A program made the position numbers and the translations under genes. Below, in pieces: positions 3,030-31,868 of a DNA stretch of 33,692 nt. The notes below the pieces were generated by a model. The model was not told the origin of the DNA. It made no database searches and worked only from the letters and a program-made list of their open reading frames with translations. The first letter of the stretch is position 1; the number at the start of each line of letters is the position of its first letter. The DNA comes from Lewinellaceae bacterium (lineage in GTDB: Bacteria > Bacteroidota > Bacteroidia > Chitinophagales > Saprospiraceae). The stretch is taken from assembly GCA_947459655.1 (NCBI GenBank), contig CANHEE010000021.1, positions 1 to 33,692 on the forward strand, written 5' to 3'.

Positions 3030-3647
3030 ATGATTGAAAGTTACTTCTCCGGTTTTTTAGCGGGTTTTCTGATGTGCCTCAGCCTGGGGACGGTCTTCTT
3101 TGCGATCATTCAGAATAGTCTGGAAAACGGCTACCGCAGTGGTGTGTTGATCTCAGCTGGTGGAATACTAAGTGACTCTATATACATCATGATTGCATTG
3201 TTCAGCACTTCCTTTCTTCCGACAATTGGACACTTCGATATGATACTCAATGGCATAGGAGCCTCTTTTTTACTGGTACTTGGAGCGGCAAGTCTGATAA
3301 AAAAATCTGCTGGCACAGGAAAAACAAGCTCCCGTGGAGGCGGGATGCTGTATTTTTTTGGTCTCGGATTTATGCTAAATACGCTCAATCCGGTGAATTT
3401 CTTTATATGGGCAGCGGCAGCGGCGGCCATCAGCTATTACAATGCCTCGAATACCATCATATTTTTCAGCGGAAGCTTATCAGCGGTATTTGTTACCCAG
3501 TTTGCCTTTTCGTACTATGCCGATTATTTCCAAAGGTATTTTACCCCAAAGCTGATCAACTACGTCAACAGGGTCGCGGGAGCCGTTTTTCTGCTGACCG
3601 GCATCTGGTTGGCCGGAAAAGTCGTTGTCTTTCTCACAGGCTACTGA
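3030..3647 (+). CDS. LysE-family amino acid exporter
   Basis: A 205-residue protein with about six membrane helices and the LysE/RhtB pattern: the N-terminal FLAGFLMCLSLGTVFFAIIQ segment with its proline-less but typical small-residue helix, the GGILSDSIYIMIA helix, and the GFMLNTLNPVNFFIWAAA segment, which carries the family's conserved NP(x)NFF(x)W motif. LysE proteins export amino acids or analogues by proton antiport; the substrate cannot be told from sequence. It begins 41 bases after the AtpI-like gene on the same strand, occupying the place where atpB would be expected. It converges on the next gene with only 33 bases between stops. Confidence 0.85.
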   Translation: MIESYFSGFLAGFLMCLSLGTVFFAIIQNSLENGYRSGVLISAGGILSDSIYIMIALFSTSFLPTIGHFDMILNGIGASFLLVLGAASLIKKSAGTGKTSSRGGGMLYFFGLGFMLNTLNPVNFFIWAAAAAAISYYNASNTIIFFSGSLSAVFVTQFAFSYYADYFQRYFTPKLINYVNRVAGAVFLLTGIWLAGKVVVFLTGY

Positions 3648-3680
3648 AACCGCTGAACTGTCTTGAGGCATTTACTCCCG

Positions 3681-5990
3681 TCAGTTAACCGCATACCACC
3701 TTCCATTCTTCATTACTTCTGATCCGGACTTCTGATAGAGCTCTGAACCCGCGGGAAAAATCATCAGTTCGTCAAGGTGCAGCGTTGAGGTCTTGAATTC
3801 CTTGTTGTGCAACACAAATTCAAATTCTGTACTGTCAGACTGTGGTACAAACTCAAAGGCTACAAATGCCCACTCGCCGTCTAGGGTTAGGATATTGTGT
3901 TGACACCCATGATGCCAAAAATATTTCTGCGAACCCTGGTTGTCGAGTTCCTTGATGAAAAGTTCGGTGTTGGCGTGATTGCCTTTTTTGACATTGAGCC
4001 AGAACTGAAAAATATACTTATCACCAACCCTGACATTCGGCATCTTGCCCCTGTACAACTGTCTGTGCTCGTTCGAGGCAAAGGATAGTGATCCCGCACC
4101 CCGATAATTAACTGCATCTGCATTTTCATCGAAATTCAGGTAGATAAAATTGTTCACGGTGTCCTTTCCCAGTAGTCCCCCTACCGGACGGAGGGCGGTA
4201 TTTTCGGCTTCGGTCCTGATTTCGGCATTCTTTTCCTGAATCAATTCCCTGTATGCTGTCAATGGCAATTCGTAGAGTACAAAACCATTGTTTTCGTGTA
4301 TTTTTTTGCCTTTACCGCATAAGGATGAGTATCGGTTGCCCGTAGCCTTGTGCCATTCCTTGTTTTCAAGCAACATCAGTGGTCGCTGATCGGGTAACCG
4401 GTTCAGCACCGGTGGTTCGCGGTATAATTCCAATCCGAGTGGAATACTGCTGAGCGTCTGCTGCCATGAGGTGCGGCTCATCATCACACCCATTGTGGGA
4501 ATACCGCTGTAATAAGAGGCAAGTAAATCGTAGGCCGGACTTGGATAACCGGCTTCAATGCTCATGTTTTCTGAGCCAAGATGAAAATAGGGCACAGGCA
4601 ATATGGCTTGGAATTTCGTTTTGTCCATGTACGGCAACCAATCGGGGATAGACTCCCCGGTAGAAGTCAGTATTTCGTACATATTGCTGGTTTTGTTTAC
4701 TTTCTCTGCATTTTGTTTGGCTTCGAAAACGCCAACTGCCAGAAAAAGCACCCAGAAAAGTCTGCGGAATTCTACACTTCTGATCTGCCGTCCCCAGTGG
4801 TAAACCGAGTAGAAGCCAAGAATATTGACCACAAAAAAGAACATCCAGGAGAATCGACCCAGGCCCCTAAACTGTTTCAGCGGACCGGTATAAGCCAGTA
4901 AAAAATCAAGTTTTTCAATTTTGAAAGGAAAACCCGTTGAAAAAAGGAACAACAACAGGGAAGCTATGAATGCCGTTTGAAAAAATGATTTTTCCTTCAG
5001 CTTGTCGCCCGGCTCAGCAACACTCAATTTGTTTCCAAAAAGCCAGGAAAGCAACCTAACCAATAAGTACAAGGTAGCAACGAAACCGATGTAGTTGAGG
5101 GATTCAAACTCTTTCTGTGGGTTAATCTTTACAACATACTGATTGAGGAAGTCAAATATAAAATTGCCCTCTTTCAGAAATGTTCCATTGGGCTTGCTGA
5201 CATAGTGCAAAAAACCCCACGGATTGTCGGGTCTGTCGCTCACGTCATTCCCTATTTTCAGCCAGATAAAATTGAAAAAAACAAAAGGCAAAACAAGTTG
5301 CAGCGACCAGTGCTTCAGGTAAAAAAACCAATCCTTGCGATCTTTCAGCACCTTTAGAAAATAAAAAGTACTCAGAAAAAGAGCCGAAATGCCGTAATAA
5401 TAGAAGTGAAGTTGTGGGGCCAATAGCAACAAAAGCATTATTCGGCAGCTCCATTTCGATGCTCTGCTTTCGAATTGCATCAAAAAGTACAACAGCAGCA
5501 ACAGGATAAACATGTAACCCAGCGCATAATGACAGCCGAAACGAAGCAATTGCGGCGATAGCCATGCCACAACGACTGCGCTCACGAGACTGTACCAATG
5601 GGGCAATTCCATCCTTCTGAAAAAGTAATACAGCATGCAACCCGACAACAACAAGGATAACAGCAGCGCGAAATTGAGAACGCCAGTGGTATGGTAGGAA
5701 ATTTCACCGAAGTTAACCTCAAAAAACCGCAGAATATTACTGATCAGCGGCTGATTGTCCGTAAACAGCACATGCTCCCCGTACGGATAATTCATGCTGT
5801 CAAAATGATGATAGGTAGCGCTATTTTTCACGTGTAGTAGCGGCGTGAGGTAGTTTTTCAGTCCATCACCGCCTGCCGACAACATCGTAGTGTCCGGACT
5901 AATAAAAATCGTCCGGAAGTTGGCAAATATTGTCAGAAGCATAACCGCTGTAGTCAGCAGCCAATGCTTCCATGAAATTTCTACGTTCAT
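3681..5990 (-). CDS. Large GT-C-like polytopic membrane protein with C-terminal jelly-roll-like domain
   Basis: A 769-residue protein. Residues 1-420 hold about a dozen membrane helices. The first extracytoplasmic loop carries an acidic GGDGLKNY segment and the SMNYPYGEHVLF stretch, resembling GT-C-fold glycosyltransferases of the DUF6311/YfhO-like type, in which acidic residues in this loop bind the lipid-phosphate sugar donor. Residues 420-769 are soluble and presumably periplasmic. The last 150 or so residues (YLNFDENADAVNYRG to LHLDELMIFPAG) look like a beta-sandwich of the carbohydrate-binding type. A role in moving sugars onto envelope glycans is inference; no substrate can be named. 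It lies 44 bases beyond the terminator of the upstream amino acid permease, so it likely has its own promoter. Confidence 0.65.
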   Translation of the reverse strand: MNVEISWKHWLLTTAVMLLTIFANFRTIFISPDTTMLSAGGDGLKNYLTPLLHVKNSATYHHFDSMNYPYGEHVLFTDNQPLISNILRFFEVNFGEISYHTTGVLNFALLLSLLLSGCMLYYFFRRMELPHWYSLVSAVVVAWLSPQLLRFGCHYALGYMFILLLLLYFLMQFESRASKWSCRIMLLLLLAPQLHFYYYGISALFLSTFYFLKVLKDRKDWFFYLKHWSLQLVLPFVFFNFIWLKIGNDVSDRPDNPWGFLHYVSKPNGTFLKEGNFIFDFLNQYVVKINPQKEFESLNYIGFVATLYLLVRLLSWLFGNKLSVAEPGDKLKEKSFFQTAFIASLLLFLFSTGFPFKIEKLDFLLAYTGPLKQFRGLGRFSWMFFFVVNILGFYSVYHWGRQIRSVEFRRLFWVLFLAVGVFEAKQNAEKVNKTSNMYEILTSTGESIPDWLPYMDKTKFQAILPVPYFHLGSENMSIEAGYPSPAYDLLASYYSGIPTMGVMMSRTSWQQTLSSIPLGLELYREPPVLNRLPDQRPLMLLENKEWHKATGNRYSSLCGKGKKIHENNGFVLYELPLTAYRELIQEKNAEIRTEAENTALRPVGGLLGKDTVNNFIYLNFDENADAVNYRGAGSLSFASNEHRQLYRGKMPNVRVGDKYIFQFWLNVKKGNHANTELFIKELDNQGSQKYFWHHGCQHNILTLDGEWAFVAFEFVPQSDSTEFEFVLHNKEFKTSTLHLDELMIFPAGSELYQKSGSEVMKNGRWYAVN

Positions 5991-10655: not shown

Positions 10656-11552
10656 ATGATGAAATTTCGCATATTGTTTTTTCTCTTCTCATTGGTCTAC
10701 TTTTTTGCAAATGCACAAAACAGTTCTCCAGTGAGTGATGGCAGCTATGCTCCATGGCACAGCAGTGATCCTGCTGCAGAACATTACTGCTATACTCTGC
10801 CTGCGACTACCGTAGTATATTCAAAACCAAATCTGAATTCGAAGGTCATTTCCCGGTTGCCTGTGGCTACAATGGTCAGAATAGAGCAGGTTACGATTGA
10901 TACCATGAAAAACAGCGGATTTTCAGCTCCCTGGTGCGTGGTAAGTTATGAACAGTATGGGAAAACACACAGTGGTTACCTTTGGGGTGGAGACCTGGCA
11001 TTTGTAACATTTGAAGTCAACGAGAAAAGCGATAGCATCAGAAATGGACTGGTTTACCTTGCAGGTGTTCTGAAAGCGGAAACCGAAAAAAACATGTGGA
11101 CGCTGCTGGTTAAAGTAGCAAGAAACAATACCGAAATCGCACAAACAGAAATTGTAACTGAAGCAGAGCCAAACTATTTCGCCAGCTTATACCACTATGG
11201 CAATCTCGACTATGATAATGTCGTCGATGTCTTGGAATTCAAGAGCTATTTTCCTTCAAATGGTTACCCATCCAGTGAAAATCTGCTGTTTTTTACAGGA
11301 AACGCCCTGAACCGGGTGCTGGAAACTTCAGACGTCTCCGATGTTAACATCTACGATTCCCAGGATTACCTGCTTTCATGCGACAAAGGAGGTATCCGCA
11401 ATCACGTTATTGTCGCTAATAACGCATTTACAGTAGAGGAAGTAGAAAAATCAAATGGGAAAACCGAGCGGGTGACCACAAGACATAAGTTTAACATCGA
11501 ACTGTATAAATGGGATGGAAAGACGCTGATTAAAAAGGATGAAATGAATTGA
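10656..11552 (+). CDS. Secreted protein with SH3-like domain, function unknown
   Basis: A 298-residue protein with a clear signal peptide (MKFRILFFLFSLVYFFANAQ, so the second ATG at 10659 may be the true start). After a short linker, residues 48-115 look like a bacterial SH3 domain: the YTLPATTVVYSKPNLNSKVI segment is the usual entry to an SH3b repeat (x-V-x-S-x-P-N-x-x-S-x-V-I), which often binds peptidoglycan peptides. The remainder (about 120-298) is beta-rich and unrecognised. Likely periplasmic. It starts 39 bases after the ABC ATPase gene on the same strand and ends at a bidirectional terminator. Confidence 0.65.
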   Translation: MMKFRILFFLFSLVYFFANAQNSSPVSDGSYAPWHSSDPAAEHYCYTLPATTVVYSKPNLNSKVISRLPVATMVRIEQVTIDTMKNSGFSAPWCVVSYEQYGKTHSGYLWGGDLAFVTFEVNEKSDSIRNGLVYLAGVLKAETEKNMWTLLVKVARNNTEIAQTEIVTEAEPNYFASLYHYGNLDYDNVVDVLEFKSYFPSNGYPSSENLLFFTGNALNRVLETSDVSDVNIYDSQDYLLSCDKGGIRNHVIVANNAFTVEEVEKSNGKTERVTTRHKFNIELYKWDGKTLIKKDEMN

Positions 11553-17087: not shown

Positions 17088-18974
17088 ATGGGCGACCACA
17101 AACATGCCTCACTAAGTGAAGTCCACGAGTCTGTAGAAACGTCCGATAAAAGAGGCTTCTGGAAAAGGCTGCTTGCATTTATGGGACCGGCCTACCTCGT
17201 GAGTGTCGGTTATATGGATCCCGGCAACTGGGCCACCGATTTGGCGGGTGGAAGCCAATTTGGCTACCAACTCATCTGGGTTCTCCTGATGTCCAATCTG
17301 ATTGCCCTGCTTTTACAGAGTTTTTGTGCTCGACTCGGCATCGTCAGGGGACTGGACCTTGCACAGGCATCGCGGGCCACCTATCCAAAGTTTATCAACA
17401 TCAGTCTGTATATTCTCGCCGAAGTGGCAATTGCGGCATGTGATCTTGCCGAAGTGGTGGGAATGGCCATCGGACTCCAACTGCTTTTCGGTTTTCCACT
17501 GCTGCTGGGCATTTGCATTTCAGTACTCGACACCTTCATCATCCTTTTTCTTTTGCACTACGGCATCCGAAAAATGGAAGCCTTTATCCTGTCATTAGTG
17601 GCCATTATCGGATTGTGTTTTTTGGGTGAACTGATTTTTGCAGCCCCTAAAATGAGTGAAATTGCTACCGGCTTTATTCCCTCAATACCTGGACATGATG
17701 CACTCTACATAGCGATAGGTATCATCGGTGCGACTGTTATGCCACATAATCTTTACCTACATTCTTCACTGGTACAGACCAGAAAATTCCAGAAAACCAA
17801 AGAGGAAATCGGAAAGGCCATCAGGTTCAATATCATTGATTCTGCCATCGCACTGAATTTCGCGTTCTTCGTTAATGCATCGATACTGATTCTTGCCGCC
17901 ACAGCCTTCTACAAAAACGGAATGTTTGAAGTGGCAGAAATCCAGGACGCCTACCGCTTGCTTGAGCCAGCACTGGGCAGCAAATGGGCACCGATTTTGT
18001 TTGCGGTTGCACTGATTGCTGCCGGACAAAGTTCTACCATCACCGGTACCCTGGCGGGTCAAATTGTGATGGAAGGCTACCTGAATTTGCGTATCCAACC
18101 TTGGCTGCGACGCATCATTACAAGGATGATTGCCATCGTTCCCGCCTTTCTGATCATCTATTTTTCAGGTGAAACAGCTACAGGAAAATTACTGGTAGGC
18201 AGTCAGGTCATTCTCAGTATGCAGCTCGGTTTTGCAGTAATTCCATTGATTCACTTCGTGAGTGACAAACGAAAAATGGGAGAATTTGCCATCAGCAATA
18301 CCCTCAAGGCGCTGGCATGGTCGAGCGCAATAGTCATCATCGGACTCAACATCAAGCTGGTTTACGAAGTATTGTCCGCCTTTATTAGCATTGATTCACC
18401 GAATCAGTGGATTTTCAAGTTCACACTTGTTCCACTGGCTATTTTAGCCTTGCTACTGATGGTCTTTGTATTTCTGGAACCATGGCTCATTACCATTAGG
18501 AAAGAAAAATTTACCCAGCTGCACAGCGGATTTTTGCCATTGGATATTCCACAAAAAATTGATATTTCGTTCAGAAAAATTGCAGTCTCCGTCGATTTTT
18601 CTTCCGTAGATTCCAAAACCATTCAGAACGCCCTGGCCCAGGGAGGAAGAGATGCCGAGTATCTGATTGTCCACGTAGTGGAAACAGCAGGCGCACGGTG
18701 GTTGGGCGATGAAATAAAAGACCACGAAACGGAAACGGACAGGGAATTTCTGAAAAAATACGCAGACGACCTGAACACTGCCGGATACCGCTGCACCTAC
18801 GAAATTGGTTACGGAAACAGGAAAATGGAAATTCCAAAAATCGTCAATCGCTTCGGTGCCGATCTGATGATAATGGGTGGACACGGTCATCAGACTGTAA
18901 TGGATTGGATTTTCGGAACCACCATTAGCGAGGTGAGGCACCAGCTCAATATTCCCGTATTGATTGTCCGCTAA
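17088..18974 (+). CDS. mntH: Nramp divalent metal transporter fused to a universal stress protein domain
   Basis: A 628-residue two-part protein. Residues 20-460 are an Nramp (MntH) transporter with about 11 helices: helix 1 carries the metal-binding GYMDPGNWATD and helix 6 carries ATVMPHNLYLHSS, the DPGN and MPH motifs that coordinate Mn(II) or Fe(II) during proton-coupled uptake. Residues 495-628 are a cytoplasmic UspA domain, from KIAVSVDFSS to a nucleotide-binding loop GGHGHQTVMDWIFGTT that fits G-2x-G-9x-G-S/T, so it probably binds ATP. The tail may gate transport by nucleotide; that is inference. It starts one base after mntR and ends at a terminator, giving a two-gene manganese-homeostasis operon. 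Confidence 0.93.
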   Translation: MGDHKHASLSEVHESVETSDKRGFWKRLLAFMGPAYLVSVGYMDPGNWATDLAGGSQFGYQLIWVLLMSNLIALLLQSFCARLGIVRGLDLAQASRATYPKFINISLYILAEVAIAACDLAEVVGMAIGLQLLFGFPLLLGICISVLDTFIILFLLHYGIRKMEAFILSLVAIIGLCFLGELIFAAPKMSEIATGFIPSIPGHDALYIAIGIIGATVMPHNLYLHSSLVQTRKFQKTKEEIGKAIRFNIIDSAIALNFAFFVNASILILAATAFYKNGMFEVAEIQDAYRLLEPALGSKWAPILFAVALIAAGQSSTITGTLAGQIVMEGYLNLRIQPWLRRIITRMIAIVPAFLIIYFSGETATGKLLVGSQVILSMQLGFAVIPLIHFVSDKRKMGEFAISNTLKALAWSSAIVIIGLNIKLVYEVLSAFISIDSPNQWIFKFTLVPLAILALLLMVFVFLEPWLITIRKEKFTQLHSGFLPLDIPQKIDISFRKIAVSVDFSSVDSKTIQNALAQGGRDAEYLIVHVVETAGARWLGDEIKDHETETDREFLKKYADDLNTAGYRCTYEIGYGNRKMEIPKIVNRFGADLMIMGGHGHQTVMDWIFGTTISEVRHQLNIPVLIVR

Positions 18975-24631: not shown

Positions 24632-25381
24632 TTATTCCTCTTTTGGCATCTGGACTTCATCGTCTGAGAGGTCGATGCCATCAATCCAGTACCGCATCTG
24701 GTGCACAATCCACTGCTGTTTCTTTGCAATATAGGGTCCCGGATTGACCGGCGACCACTTTCTCGGATTGGGCAGAATGGATGCGATGCCGGCCGCCTCC
24801 TGTCTACTCAAGTCGGCAGCGTGTTTTCGGTAGTAATGCAAAGAAGCAGCCTCAGCACCGTAGACACCATCTCCCATTTCAATGACATTCAGATATACCT
24901 CCATGATGCGTCGTTTCGACCAGAAAGTTTCGATCATGAAAGTAAAATACACTTCAAAACCTTTTCTGACCCAGCTTCTTCCCTGCCAGAGAAACACGTT
25001 TTTGGCAACTTGCTGGCTGATGGTACTGGCGCCCTGAACAGGTCTGCCCTTGCGTTTGCGTTTTTTATTATTTTCAATAGCTTTTTGAATGGCTTCAATG
25101 TCAAATCCGTTGTGTTCCTCAAAATGCTGGTCTTCAGAACAGATTACAGCAAGCACCAGATTATCGGATATTTCCTCCAGGGGCACCCAATCTTTTCTAA
25201 AAAAAATGGGCTTTCCGGCGCTTTTTTGTTCGACCATTCTCACCACCATCAAAGGTGTAAAAAAGACGGGAACAAGGCCGGTCAGCAAAACCCAGACAAA
25301 GGTGATTCCCAAAAACCACAGGGCAACTTTCAGTACCAGCGCACCGATGCTTTTGCGAATTTTCCTGAAATCAATTGCCAT
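24632..25381 (-). CDS. mtgA: Monofunctional peptidoglycan glycosyltransferase
   Basis: A 249-residue GT51 enzyme polymerising lipid II into glycan strands. After an N-terminal anchor helix (about 16-40) the core motifs appear in order: CSEDQHFEEHNGFD (with the catalytic glutamate), GASTISQQVAKNVFL, the second catalytic-region SKRRIMEVYLNVIEMGDGVYG, and AGIASILPNPRKWSP. No transpeptidase domain is present, so it is monofunctional. It is bordered downstream by AMP nucleosidase (41 bases) and upstream by a separate terminator-ended gene. Confidence 0.95.
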   Translation of the reverse strand: MAIDFRKIRKSIGALVLKVALWFLGITFVWVLLTGLVPVFFTPLMVVRMVEQKSAGKPIFFRKDWVPLEEISDNLVLAVICSEDQHFEEHNGFDIEAIQKAIENNKKRKRKGRPVQGASTISQQVAKNVFLWQGRSWVRKGFEVYFTFMIETFWSKRRIMEVYLNVIEMGDGVYGAEAASLHYYRKHAADLSRQEAAGIASILPNPRKWSPVNPGPYIAKKQQWIVHQMRYWIDGIDLSDDEVQMPKEE

Positions 25382-25477
25382 AATGACTTGCCTGTTTTCC
25401 TGACGATAAATAGGGATGCAAGATACGAAAGGCTGCAGATATCCTGTTGCTTTTAACCATTTTATAACGAAAACAGA

Positions 25478-25514
25478 AAATCCCGGGATTTCCGAAAAGG
25501 CAAACCCGGGATTT
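25478..25514 (-). terminator. Terminator of the Lys/Ala-rich protein gene
   Basis: A perfect ten-base-pair stem (AAATCCCGGG at 25478-25487 and CCCGGGATTT at 25505-25514) with a 17-base loop, followed on the minus strand by TTTTCTGTTTT. Each arm also holds the self-complementary CCCGGG. Confidence 0.8.
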
Positions 25515-25537
25515 GTGAAACCTGTCTACCGATAGGC

Positions 25538-26080
25538 TTATTTTTCCTTTTTCACATAAGTTTTGTTACCATTGGCGTTGATGTAGTACACACCGCCTTT
25601 TGCTCCCTGATAAAGTGTTCTTCCTTTCTCATCTTTCCCGAACACCTTGTCCGACTTGGCTACTTCTTTTTCGGTAGCGGGTGTCGCTTTTTCAGCCTTT
25701 ACTTTGGTCTCCTTGGCGGGAGCAGCAGCTTTTTCCTTCACTGTCTTTGTGTCTTTGGCAGGTTTTGCCTCCGCTTTAGCAGCAGGTGCTTTTGTCTCCT
25801 TGGTTGAAGGCTTATCTTTCTTAGCATCGGCCGCAGACTTGTCCTTAGCAGCTTTTGGCGCTTTCGAATCGGTAACCTTTGCCTCTTTAGCGGGTTTTGA
25901 TTCCGCTTTGGCCGCAGGTATCTTGGTTTCTTTTGTTGCAGGCTTATCGGCCTTGGTAGCTTTGGTTTCCTTCGCAGCTTTCGCCTTTGGCGCTGCGGGT
26001 TCCTTCTGAGCCTGTGCACTGAAAGTCGTAAAAAGGAAAGCAATAAATGTCAGAACGATAATTTGTTTAATGGATTTCAT
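25538..26080 (-). CDS. Secreted Lys/Ala-rich repeat protein with PBCV-basic-adaptor-like C-terminus
   Basis: A 180-residue protein with a signal peptide (MKSIKQIIVLTFIAFLFTTF, cleaved near residue 24), then about 120 residues of low-complexity Lys/Ala/Pro/Glu/Thr resembling histone H1 tails. Within it a block recurs 44 residues apart (starting DKPATKETKIPAAKAE at 45 and DKPSTKETKAPAAKAE at 89), with matching similarity in the DNA at a 132-base offset. The last 30 residues (about 149-177) read GRTLYQGAKGGVYYINANGN followed by KTYV, close to the PBCV-specific basic adaptor motif (GRxIYxGxxGGxYYxxxxGxKxYV). The function is unknown; binding of an acidic polymer or surface attachment is a guess. 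It is terminated by its own strong hairpin. Confidence 0.7.
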   Translation of the reverse strand: MKSIKQIIVLTFIAFLFTTFSAQAQKEPAAPKAKAAKETKATKADKPATKETKIPAAKAESKPAKEAKVTDSKAPKAAKDKSAADAKKDKPSTKETKAPAAKAEAKPAKDTKTVKEKAAAPAKETKVKAEKATPATEKEVAKSDKVFGKDEKGRTLYQGAKGGVYYINANGNKTYVKKEK

Positions 26081-26162: not shown

Positions 26163-27161
26163 TCAACCATTTTCAAGCGTATGCCAGAGCAGATCTTTCA
26201 GTTCCTGTATCCCCTGTTCGGCAATGGCAGAAATAAAAATGTGTGGGATGTCTTTTGGCAATTCCGGCTCAATCAGGTCTTGAATCAGTTCGTCATCAAC
26301 AAGATCGCATTTGGTAATGGCGATGATGCGCGGCTTGTCCAGCAATTCCGGATTGAACATCTCCAACTCCTTGAGCAAAATATGGTACTCTTTCACGATA
26401 TCATCGGCGTTGGAGGGTATCATAAACAACAACACAGCATTGCGTTCAATATGCCTCAGGAAGCGGTGCCCGAGTCCTTTACCCTCATGGGCGTTCTCGA
26501 TAATTCCCGGGATATCGGCCATGATGAAGGAGCGGTGTCCCCGGTAACTGACAATTCCAAGATTGGGGACAAGGGTTGTAAAAGGGTAGTCGGCAATCTG
26601 TGGTTTTGCGGCAGACATCACAGACAAAAGTGTAGACTTTCCGGCATTGGGAAATCCTACCAGGCCGACATCGGCAAGCACCTTCAATTCGAGGGTGACC
26701 CAGCCTTCGCGGCCTTGCTCACCGGGTTGAGCATACTGTGGCACCTGATTGGTGGGAGATACAAAATGCTGGTTTCCACGGCCGCCACGGCCACCTGCAA
26801 ACAACACTCCGGTTTGTCCGTGTTCAGTAATCTCGCCCAGTTTCTCTCCGGTTTCCTCATCGACGATGATGGTCCCGAGCGGCACATCGACCACTACATC
26901 TTCACCATCTGCACCGGTACAGTTTTTCCCGGAACCGTTTACGCCATCCTTGGCGAGGAGGTGTTTGCGGTAGCGCAGATGCAGCAATGTCCACAGATTT
27001 TCATTGCCCCTGACAATTACTGAACCCCCTTTTCCGCCGTCACCACCATCCGGACCGCCCATTGCGGTCATGCCATCACGATAAAAGTGAACGGAACCGG
27101 CTCCGCCCTTGCCTGACCGGCAAAAGACCCGGATGTAATCGATAAAATTCTGTTCTGCCAA
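26163..27161 (-). CDS. obg: GTPase Obg/CgtA
   Basis: A 332-residue essential GTPase of ribosome (50S) maturation and stress signalling. Residues 1-158 are the glycine-rich Obg fold ([15 protein letters not shown] and similar). The G domain follows with G1 GFPNAGKST, switch [13 protein letters not shown]3 DIPGI, G4 ITKCDL and G5 ISAIAEQ. The variable C-terminal domain is essentially missing, as in other Bacteroidota. The start is a TTG at 27161 ([13 protein letters not shown]), supported because no upstream ATG fits and this is the conserved beginning. Confidence 0.95.
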
Positions 27162-31163: not shown

Positions 31164-31868
31164 ATGTCAGGACACCATCATCATCACGAAGAACACCTCG
31201 AAAGCTCAGACATCATCAAGGACGTCGTTATTGGAATGTCTGACGGCCTTACCGTTCCTTTTGCCCTGGCTGCCGGTTTGAGCGGTGCGGTCACAGACAA
31301 TCACCTCATCATTGTTGCCGGCATTGCGGAAATTGCAGCGGGTGCGATTGCAATGGGTCTTGGCGGTTATCTGTCCGGACAAACCGAATTACATCATTAC
31401 CAATCCGAACTTAAACGAGAATACTGGGAAATTGAACACAAACGCGACTGGGAAATCAAGGAGGTCAAAGACATTTTTCTGGAGATGGGGCTGAGCGAGA
31501 CAATTGCCGATGAGGCTACTGCGGAGCTCATCAAAGACGAAAAGAAATGGGTCGACTTTATGATGCGGCATGAGCTTGGTTTGGAAGAACCGGATGAAAA
31601 GCGTGCTACCAAAAGCGCATTCAATATCGGTATTTCCTATATCATCGGGGGTATTATTCCCCTAACAGCTTACTTTTTGACAGATACACCGCATCAGGGA
31701 TTGCTGTATTCGACGGCCATCACACTTGTTTGTCTTTTCATTTTCGGTTACTACAGAAGTAAAATGACCGGACAGCCACTTTGGGAGGGTGCCACAAAAA
31801 CCATGATTATCGGAGCCATAGCTGCTGCGACTGCATATGCGGTAGCCAAAACTTTTGGCGCAGCCTGA
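31164..31868 (+). CDS. VIT1/CCC1-family metal transporter
   Basis: A 234-residue protein with about five membrane helices. The N-terminus is a histidine/glutamate stretch (SGHHHHHEEH) suited to metal binding. Helix 1 carries VVIGMSDGLTVPFALAAGLS, the VIT family signature, and helix 2 GIAEIAAGAIAMGLGGYLSG, both conserved in iron/manganese exporters. A cytoplasmic helical segment rich in Glu/Lys (about 72-145) corresponds to the VIT metal-binding domain. VIT1/CCC1 proteins move Fe(II) or Mn(II) out of the cytosol. It is the second gene of the HD operon and converges on the redoxin gene with only 13 bases between stops. Confidence 0.9.
   Translation: MSGHHHHHEEHLESSDIIKDVVIGMSDGLTVPFALAAGLSGAVTDNHLIIVAGIAEIAAGAIAMGLGGYLSGQTELHHYQSELKREYWEIEHKRDWEIKEVKDIFLEMGLSETIADEATAELIKDEKKWVDFMMRHELGLEEPDEKRATKSAFNIGISYIIGGIIPLTAYFLTDTPHQGLLYSTAITLVCLFIFGYYRSKMTGQPLWEGATKTMIIGAIAAATAYAVAKTFGAA

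Follow-up and report, generated by a model that had tools for sequence, protein, structure and literature searches.

A gene for an exported Lys/Ala-rich protein

We analyzed a stretch of 33,692 nucleotides from a Lewinellaceae bacterium (the window), in which a gene on the minus strand encodes a protein of 180 residues composed of a signal peptide, a basic low-complexity tract, and a conserved C-terminal segment, here called the tail (Table 1). The tail-bearing gene is present as a single copy in its own genome. It is flanked by obgE (26163-27161) and the monofunctional transglycosylase gene mtgA (24632-25381), all three genes being on the minus strand. Among 45 tail loci compared for obgE/mtgA synteny, only the window's own loci matched beyond noise; the gene thus lies outside any conserved operon. 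No sigma-70 or Bacteroidetes-type promoter pattern was found upstream of it. The hairpin on its 3' side is a probable intrinsic terminator: the segment from 25470 to 25540 folds at −25.7 kcal/mol (z = −3.31), and one terminator-like site occurs at the hairpin, shuffled sequences averaging 1.6 over the region.

Table 1. Features of the gene and its product, in positions of the window
Feature	Residues	Positions	Strand	Basis
CDS of the Lys/Ala-rich exported protein (180 aa)		25541-26080	minus	ORF 25538-26080 with ATG start; stop codon 25538-25540
Signal peptide, MKSIKQIIVLTFIAFLFTTFSAQA	1-24	26009-26080	minus	Hydropathy and cleavage-site rule
Lys/Ala/Pro/Thr-rich low-complexity polycationic tract	25-143	25652-26008	minus	Composition
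Internal duplication, copy 1	45-88	25817-25948	minus	24/44 identical to copy 2
Internal duplication, copy 2	89-132	25685-25816	minus	24/44 identical to copy 1
Conserved C-terminal tail	144-180	25541-25651	minus	PF08789, relatives, four-stranded model
PF08789 (PBCV_basic_adap) match	149-178	25547-25636	minus	
Candidate intrinsic terminator: ten-pair GC-rich hairpin, then T-rich stretch, 3' of the gene		25478-25514	minus	

After the top hydrophobic 11-mer of the protein (IIVLTFIAFLF, residues 7 to 17, mean Kyte-Doolittle hydropathy of 3.16), an AQA-type cleavage site occurs at about residue 24. Signal peptides were called here and below with our own hydropathy and cleavage-site rule, and under this rule the protein has a Sec signal peptide with a cleavage site. 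The tract that follows contains 34 Lys and 33 Ala among 119 residues, and the mature protein (residues 25 to 180) has 43 Lys/Arg versus 22 Asp/Glu, giving a net charge of +21. The signal peptide and the basic low-complexity tract described in an earlier note on this DNA were thus both borne out. The 44-residue internal duplication that it also described held in part: the two copies lie precisely 44 residues apart, but the clearly similar core is only 24 residues long (aa 45 to 68 versus 89 to 112, 19/24 identical; 77.8% over 72 nt), with a score that none of 2,000 shuffles of the tract reached.

Lys/Ala-rich proteins resembling histone H1, such as Hc1/Hc2 and AlgP, occur in bacteria. The window protein is like them in being a Lys/Ala/Pro-rich polycation that is probably disordered over its tract, and it differs from them by its signal peptide and its folded tail; neither a linker-histone nor an Hc1 family was among the five Pfam families that matched it at E values up to 10.

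Three other ORFs of the window, all on the plus strand, touch on what follows or stand by themselves. At 31164-31868, 5 kb away from the Lys/Ala-rich gene, lies an ORF that by eye is VIT1/CCC1-like; elsewhere, 9 of 80 loci (the Arcicella/Flectobacillus group) have such an ORF beside their tail gene, which probably reflects clade synteny or chance. The ORF at 10656-11552 encodes a secreted protein with a weak, below-threshold match to SH3_3, a domain that partners the tail elsewhere. The ORF at 17088-18974 is, we take it, an Nramp-type transporter with a long C-terminal extension like a universal stress protein domain.

The tail and its relatives in Bacteroidota

The tail (GRTLYQGAKGGVYYINANGNKTYV; also given as DKVFGKDEKGRTLYQGAKGGVYYINANGNKTYVKKEK) belongs to PF08789, a family named for chloroviruses, where its members are A278L, A282L, and small proteins. 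The profile search scored 23.4 bits on the whole protein (E value = 6.6 × 10−5; curated Pfam cut-off, 20.4) and 28.7 bits on the last 37 residues alone (E value = 1.5 × 10−6), which confirmed the PBCV-type C-terminal motif first proposed from the letters alone. Unlike its relatives, the window tail has Ala in place of the near-invariant Pro of GPxGG. AlphaFold models of 77 tails had four short strands (mean pLDDT of 79). In the viral library BFVD, the best fold matches of the tail model included PBCV basic adaptor proteins with a probability of 0.99 to 1 and a TM score by query of about 0.55 to 0.66, but with E values of only 0.06 to 0.3; Nt.CviQII, a chlorovirus nicking endonuclease, was matched at rank 35 (E value = 0.69). 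The modeled fold would thus be most like that of the chlorovirus adaptor proteins, at weak E values. Because the best values against solved structures were weak as well (E value = 0.18 by sequence; Foldseek E value = 0.84 and VIA-align Z ≤ 4.0 by fold in the PDB), we recognized no solved relative of the tail.

The window tail resembles the viral members of PF08789 in scoring over the curated cut-off, and its four-stranded model may share their fold. The setting of the domain differs: in the passages of PMC3281028 that treat them, the viral members are on protein kinases, and the bacterial form is exported, its fusion partner being either a Lys-rich tract or a secreted enzyme. According to the same passages, the chlorovirus kinases A278L and A282L, which have this domain, are among the DNA-associated basic proteins of the PBCV-1 virion (PMC3281028).

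We looked for relatives at several depths. With the Pfam model (E ≤ 0.001), PF08789 was found among 60 close genomes only in the one that contains the window and, across the phylum, in 13 of 395 genomes; with the window tail as the query (E ≤ 0.01), 23 of the 298 genomes searched within the family gave matches. A profile built from 22 tails marked 43 places in 34 of the 395 phylum genomes. The tail-only survey of these 395 genomes gave 42 distinct frames, of which 26 were Lys/Arg-rich by our count (a K+R fraction of the tract of ≥0.2 and a net charge of at least +5), 16 of the 26 being from Flavobacterium. The search of phage records for the tail found none. Furthermore, a pattern scan of reference genomes yielded 338 relatives among 391 candidate stretches, and the best 80 of the 338, in a ranking that rewards Lys-rich tracts, nearly all combined a signal peptide, a Lys-rich tract, and the tail. 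These 80 loci include Runella, Emticicia, Arcicella, Lacihabitans, Flectobacillus, Saprospiraceae, Hydrotalea, Chitinophaga, Aquimarina, Flavobacterium, Tenacibaculum, and others, as well as two contigs titled Beijerinckiaceae and Ignavibacteriae, respectively. The architecture, which the earlier note had taken to be unusual, is therefore not singular, the same design being found in Saprospiraceae, Spirosomataceae, Chitinophagaceae, and Flavobacteriaceae.

Export is a common property of these proteins. Under one rule for both sets, an export signal was called in 74 of 77 tail ORFs versus 102 of 269 flanking ORFs. Among all distinct tail ORFs, a set of our own selection that includes near relatives and for which we claim no P value, the signal was present in 141 of 152. 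The window protein, being small, exported, and Lys-rich, might on these grounds be an antimicrobial polycation released against other cells. This is the least probable of the readings weighed here: across the best 80 of the 338 loci, neighbors clustered only within clades and no partner recurred across genera, and the presence of the protein in so many genera suggests a general role.

Of 18 chosen pairs, one was absent from the data set; in all 17 others, the tail was more conserved than the tract (median identity of about 97% versus about 66%). We analyzed the tract in 79 of the 80 reference loci, leaving out L124, for which there was only a short wrong frame. In these, tract length ranged from 29 to 201 residues and Lys made up about 35% (median); Cys and Trp were absent from all 79, Lys was far above Arg in 76, and the net charge was positive in all 79, with a median of +17. 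With the sequence of the tail kept and the composition of the tract kept, selection seems to act on tail sequence and on tract composition. Some tracts are close to a balance of Lys with Glu and Asp (net charge per residue of 0.04 to 0.12), which weakens a simple model of charge or DNA neutralization. The drift of the tract in sequence and length and the small net charge of several K/E/D-rich homologues would also suit a disordered protectant or spacer, i.e., a hydrated, charge-rich tract resembling LEA proteins that the tail merely anchors. We consider this improbable, since the net charge is positive without exception among the 79 tracts, reaching +21 in the window protein, and since no part is better conserved than the tail, which makes specific work by the tail likely.

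Nucleases and other proteins that carry the tail

The partners of the tail, whose fusions in Bacteroidota the earlier note had thought worth listing, include nuclease, SH3-like, Rhs-like, lipoprotein, and Lys-rich-tract partners. Some secreted nucleases (Endonuclease_NS, SNase, HNH) share the tail type of the window protein and carry an enzyme domain, which the window protein lacks according to Pfam. Proteins that end in the tail include DNA/RNA non-specific endonucleases (L003, L186, and L015, the last encoded on a Runella plasmid), HNH proteins (L036 and the two-tailed L030), and an SNase protein (L047). Among 36 tail members that are not Lys-rich, again our own selection with near relatives included and no P value claimed, nuclease matches were obtained in 6 at E ≤ 0.01 and in 5 at E ≤ 10−5. 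The control at the latter threshold gave nuclease matches in at least 2 of 105 exported-looking flank ORFs (110 before the removal of five that carried or possibly carried the tail), and both of these are themselves tail linked: the SNase of L061 overlaps the tail gene, and the Endonuclease_NS of L054 is about 0.5 kb off. Moreover, four IMG/VR contigs (L046, L056, L058, and L061) have a secreted SNase whose frame abuts the end of the tail gene or overlaps it.

The gene pair in these four contigs is compact and lies at about 3500-4990 in each. Its tail protein has a signal peptide and a zinc-type motif, C-AITxxGxQCSR-YCWQH (DUF5763-like); a DUF5763 match in Pfam was found in 6 of the 36 scanned tail members.

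Starting from nucleases gave no enrichment. For 30 loci per family, among the best scoring and many from distant genera, the tail was within about 1.5 kb of 0/30 SNase and 1/30 Endonuclease_NS loci, and the non-nuclease control YceI gave 1/30. In addition, no nuclease motif was found in flanks of up to 4 kb at any of the 80 Lys-rich loci, and the nuclease link therefore rests on the other architectures.

Tails also occur without a nuclease part, on SH3, DUF5763, and Rhs-like proteins and on tiny lipoproteins. Bacterial SH3-like proteins end in the tail at L039, L041, and L161; tails are tandem or non-terminal at L030, L161, and L175; and M23 peptidase genes adjoin tail genes on two plasmids. 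One frame, ending at about 1593 of L180, encodes what is by eye a protein of the Rhs-repeat type with a terminal tail, which suggests that the module may cap polymorphic secreted proteins too. A second form of the tail, approximately GPRGGCYYINSNGNKTYVDRSxC, was seen at L050, L051, L054, L060, L062, L064, L065, L067, L179, and L181; its two cysteines could form a disulfide. Most proteins with this form are lipoprotein-like or small and exported, and some are barely longer than the tail itself.

A place at the extreme C terminus of many unrelated exported proteins is what a secretion or sorting signal would have, e.g., a shortened form of the T9SS C-terminal domain (Por_Secre_tail, PF18962), which shares that place on exported Bacteroidota proteins and has 95 matches in the genome. 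That the tail is such a signal is very improbable. The T9SS domain is about 75 residues long, and the window tail has 37 residues and a GG-YY signature. Pfam found no Por_Secre_tail match in the window protein, and hhalign gave a probability of 0.5% between the tail and eight T9SS sorting domains of the same genome. One of the 36 members (by sequence, L071) has a Por_Secre_tail match in addition to the tail. The tandem and non-terminal tails listed above also argue against a sorting signal, as does the presence of the domain on viral virion proteins in the passages cited (PMC3281028).

Possible binding partners outside the cytoplasm

The window protein is an exported, polycation-fused form within the already known PF08789 family, recurrent and not singular. 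We tentatively favor the view that it is an exported, disordered polycation with a PBCV basic adaptor tail that binds an anionic polymer, likeliest nucleic acid, outside the cytoplasm. After Sec export, the signal peptide would be removed and the small folded C-terminal module kept. The Lys-rich arm would then bind and bridge the anionic polymer by charge, much like the tail of histone H1, with a defined contact contributed by the four-stranded tail. DNA or RNA that reaches the periplasm, the surface, or the matrix would be the likeliest polymer. We infer the disorder of the tract, the polyanion binding, nucleic acid as the preferred partner, and the place where the protein ends up. We counted for polymer binding the PF08789 match, the recurrence of the design, the conservation of the tail, the export signals, and the nuclease fusions and overlaps. 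The nuclease links and the precedent of DNA-associated virion proteins in the passages cited (PMC3281028) make nucleic acid the favored target; counted against it were the negative control that started from nucleases, the tail partners other than nucleases, the near-balanced tracts, and fold E values of at least 0.06.

The same arm and tail may possibly bind the envelope rather than nucleic acid, and this is a strong rival: whether periplasmic or on the cell surface, they would hold on to LPS phosphates, peptidoglycan, or acidic exopolysaccharide and give cohesion to the envelope or matrix. The Sec signal leads to the envelope, and a Gram-negative protein with a Sec signal alone reaches the periplasm only. 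The SH3-like proteins and small lipoproteins that carry the tail are typical envelope company, and the M23 peptidase genes beside tail genes on the two plasmids point the same way. An envelope binder leaves unexplained the fusions and overlaps of the tail with three nuclease superfamilies and, within the passages cited, the DNA-associated virion proteins that have the domain (PMC3281028).

A bolder form of the nucleic acid reading is unlikely: a Bacteroidota family of H1-like exported proteins would condense or cross-link extracytoplasmic nucleic acid via a short nucleic acid adaptor that giant algal viruses also have, and the adaptor would also target secreted nucleases. If this were true, one exported system would both protect and degrade extracellular DNA.

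Our full-text literature searches for the PF08789 domain turned up one paper that mentions it by name and no description of the exported tail-bearing family, and among the titles and abstract openings on Lys-rich exported or eDNA-binding Bacteroidetes proteins, we recognized nothing relevant. A widespread exported bacterial form of PF08789, often attached to a polycation and sometimes to a nuclease, would supply a function of the domain that can be tested, the binding of nucleic acid or of another polyanion, and these exported proteins could point to components of the matrix or envelope that have gone unrecognized in a major phylum of the environment.
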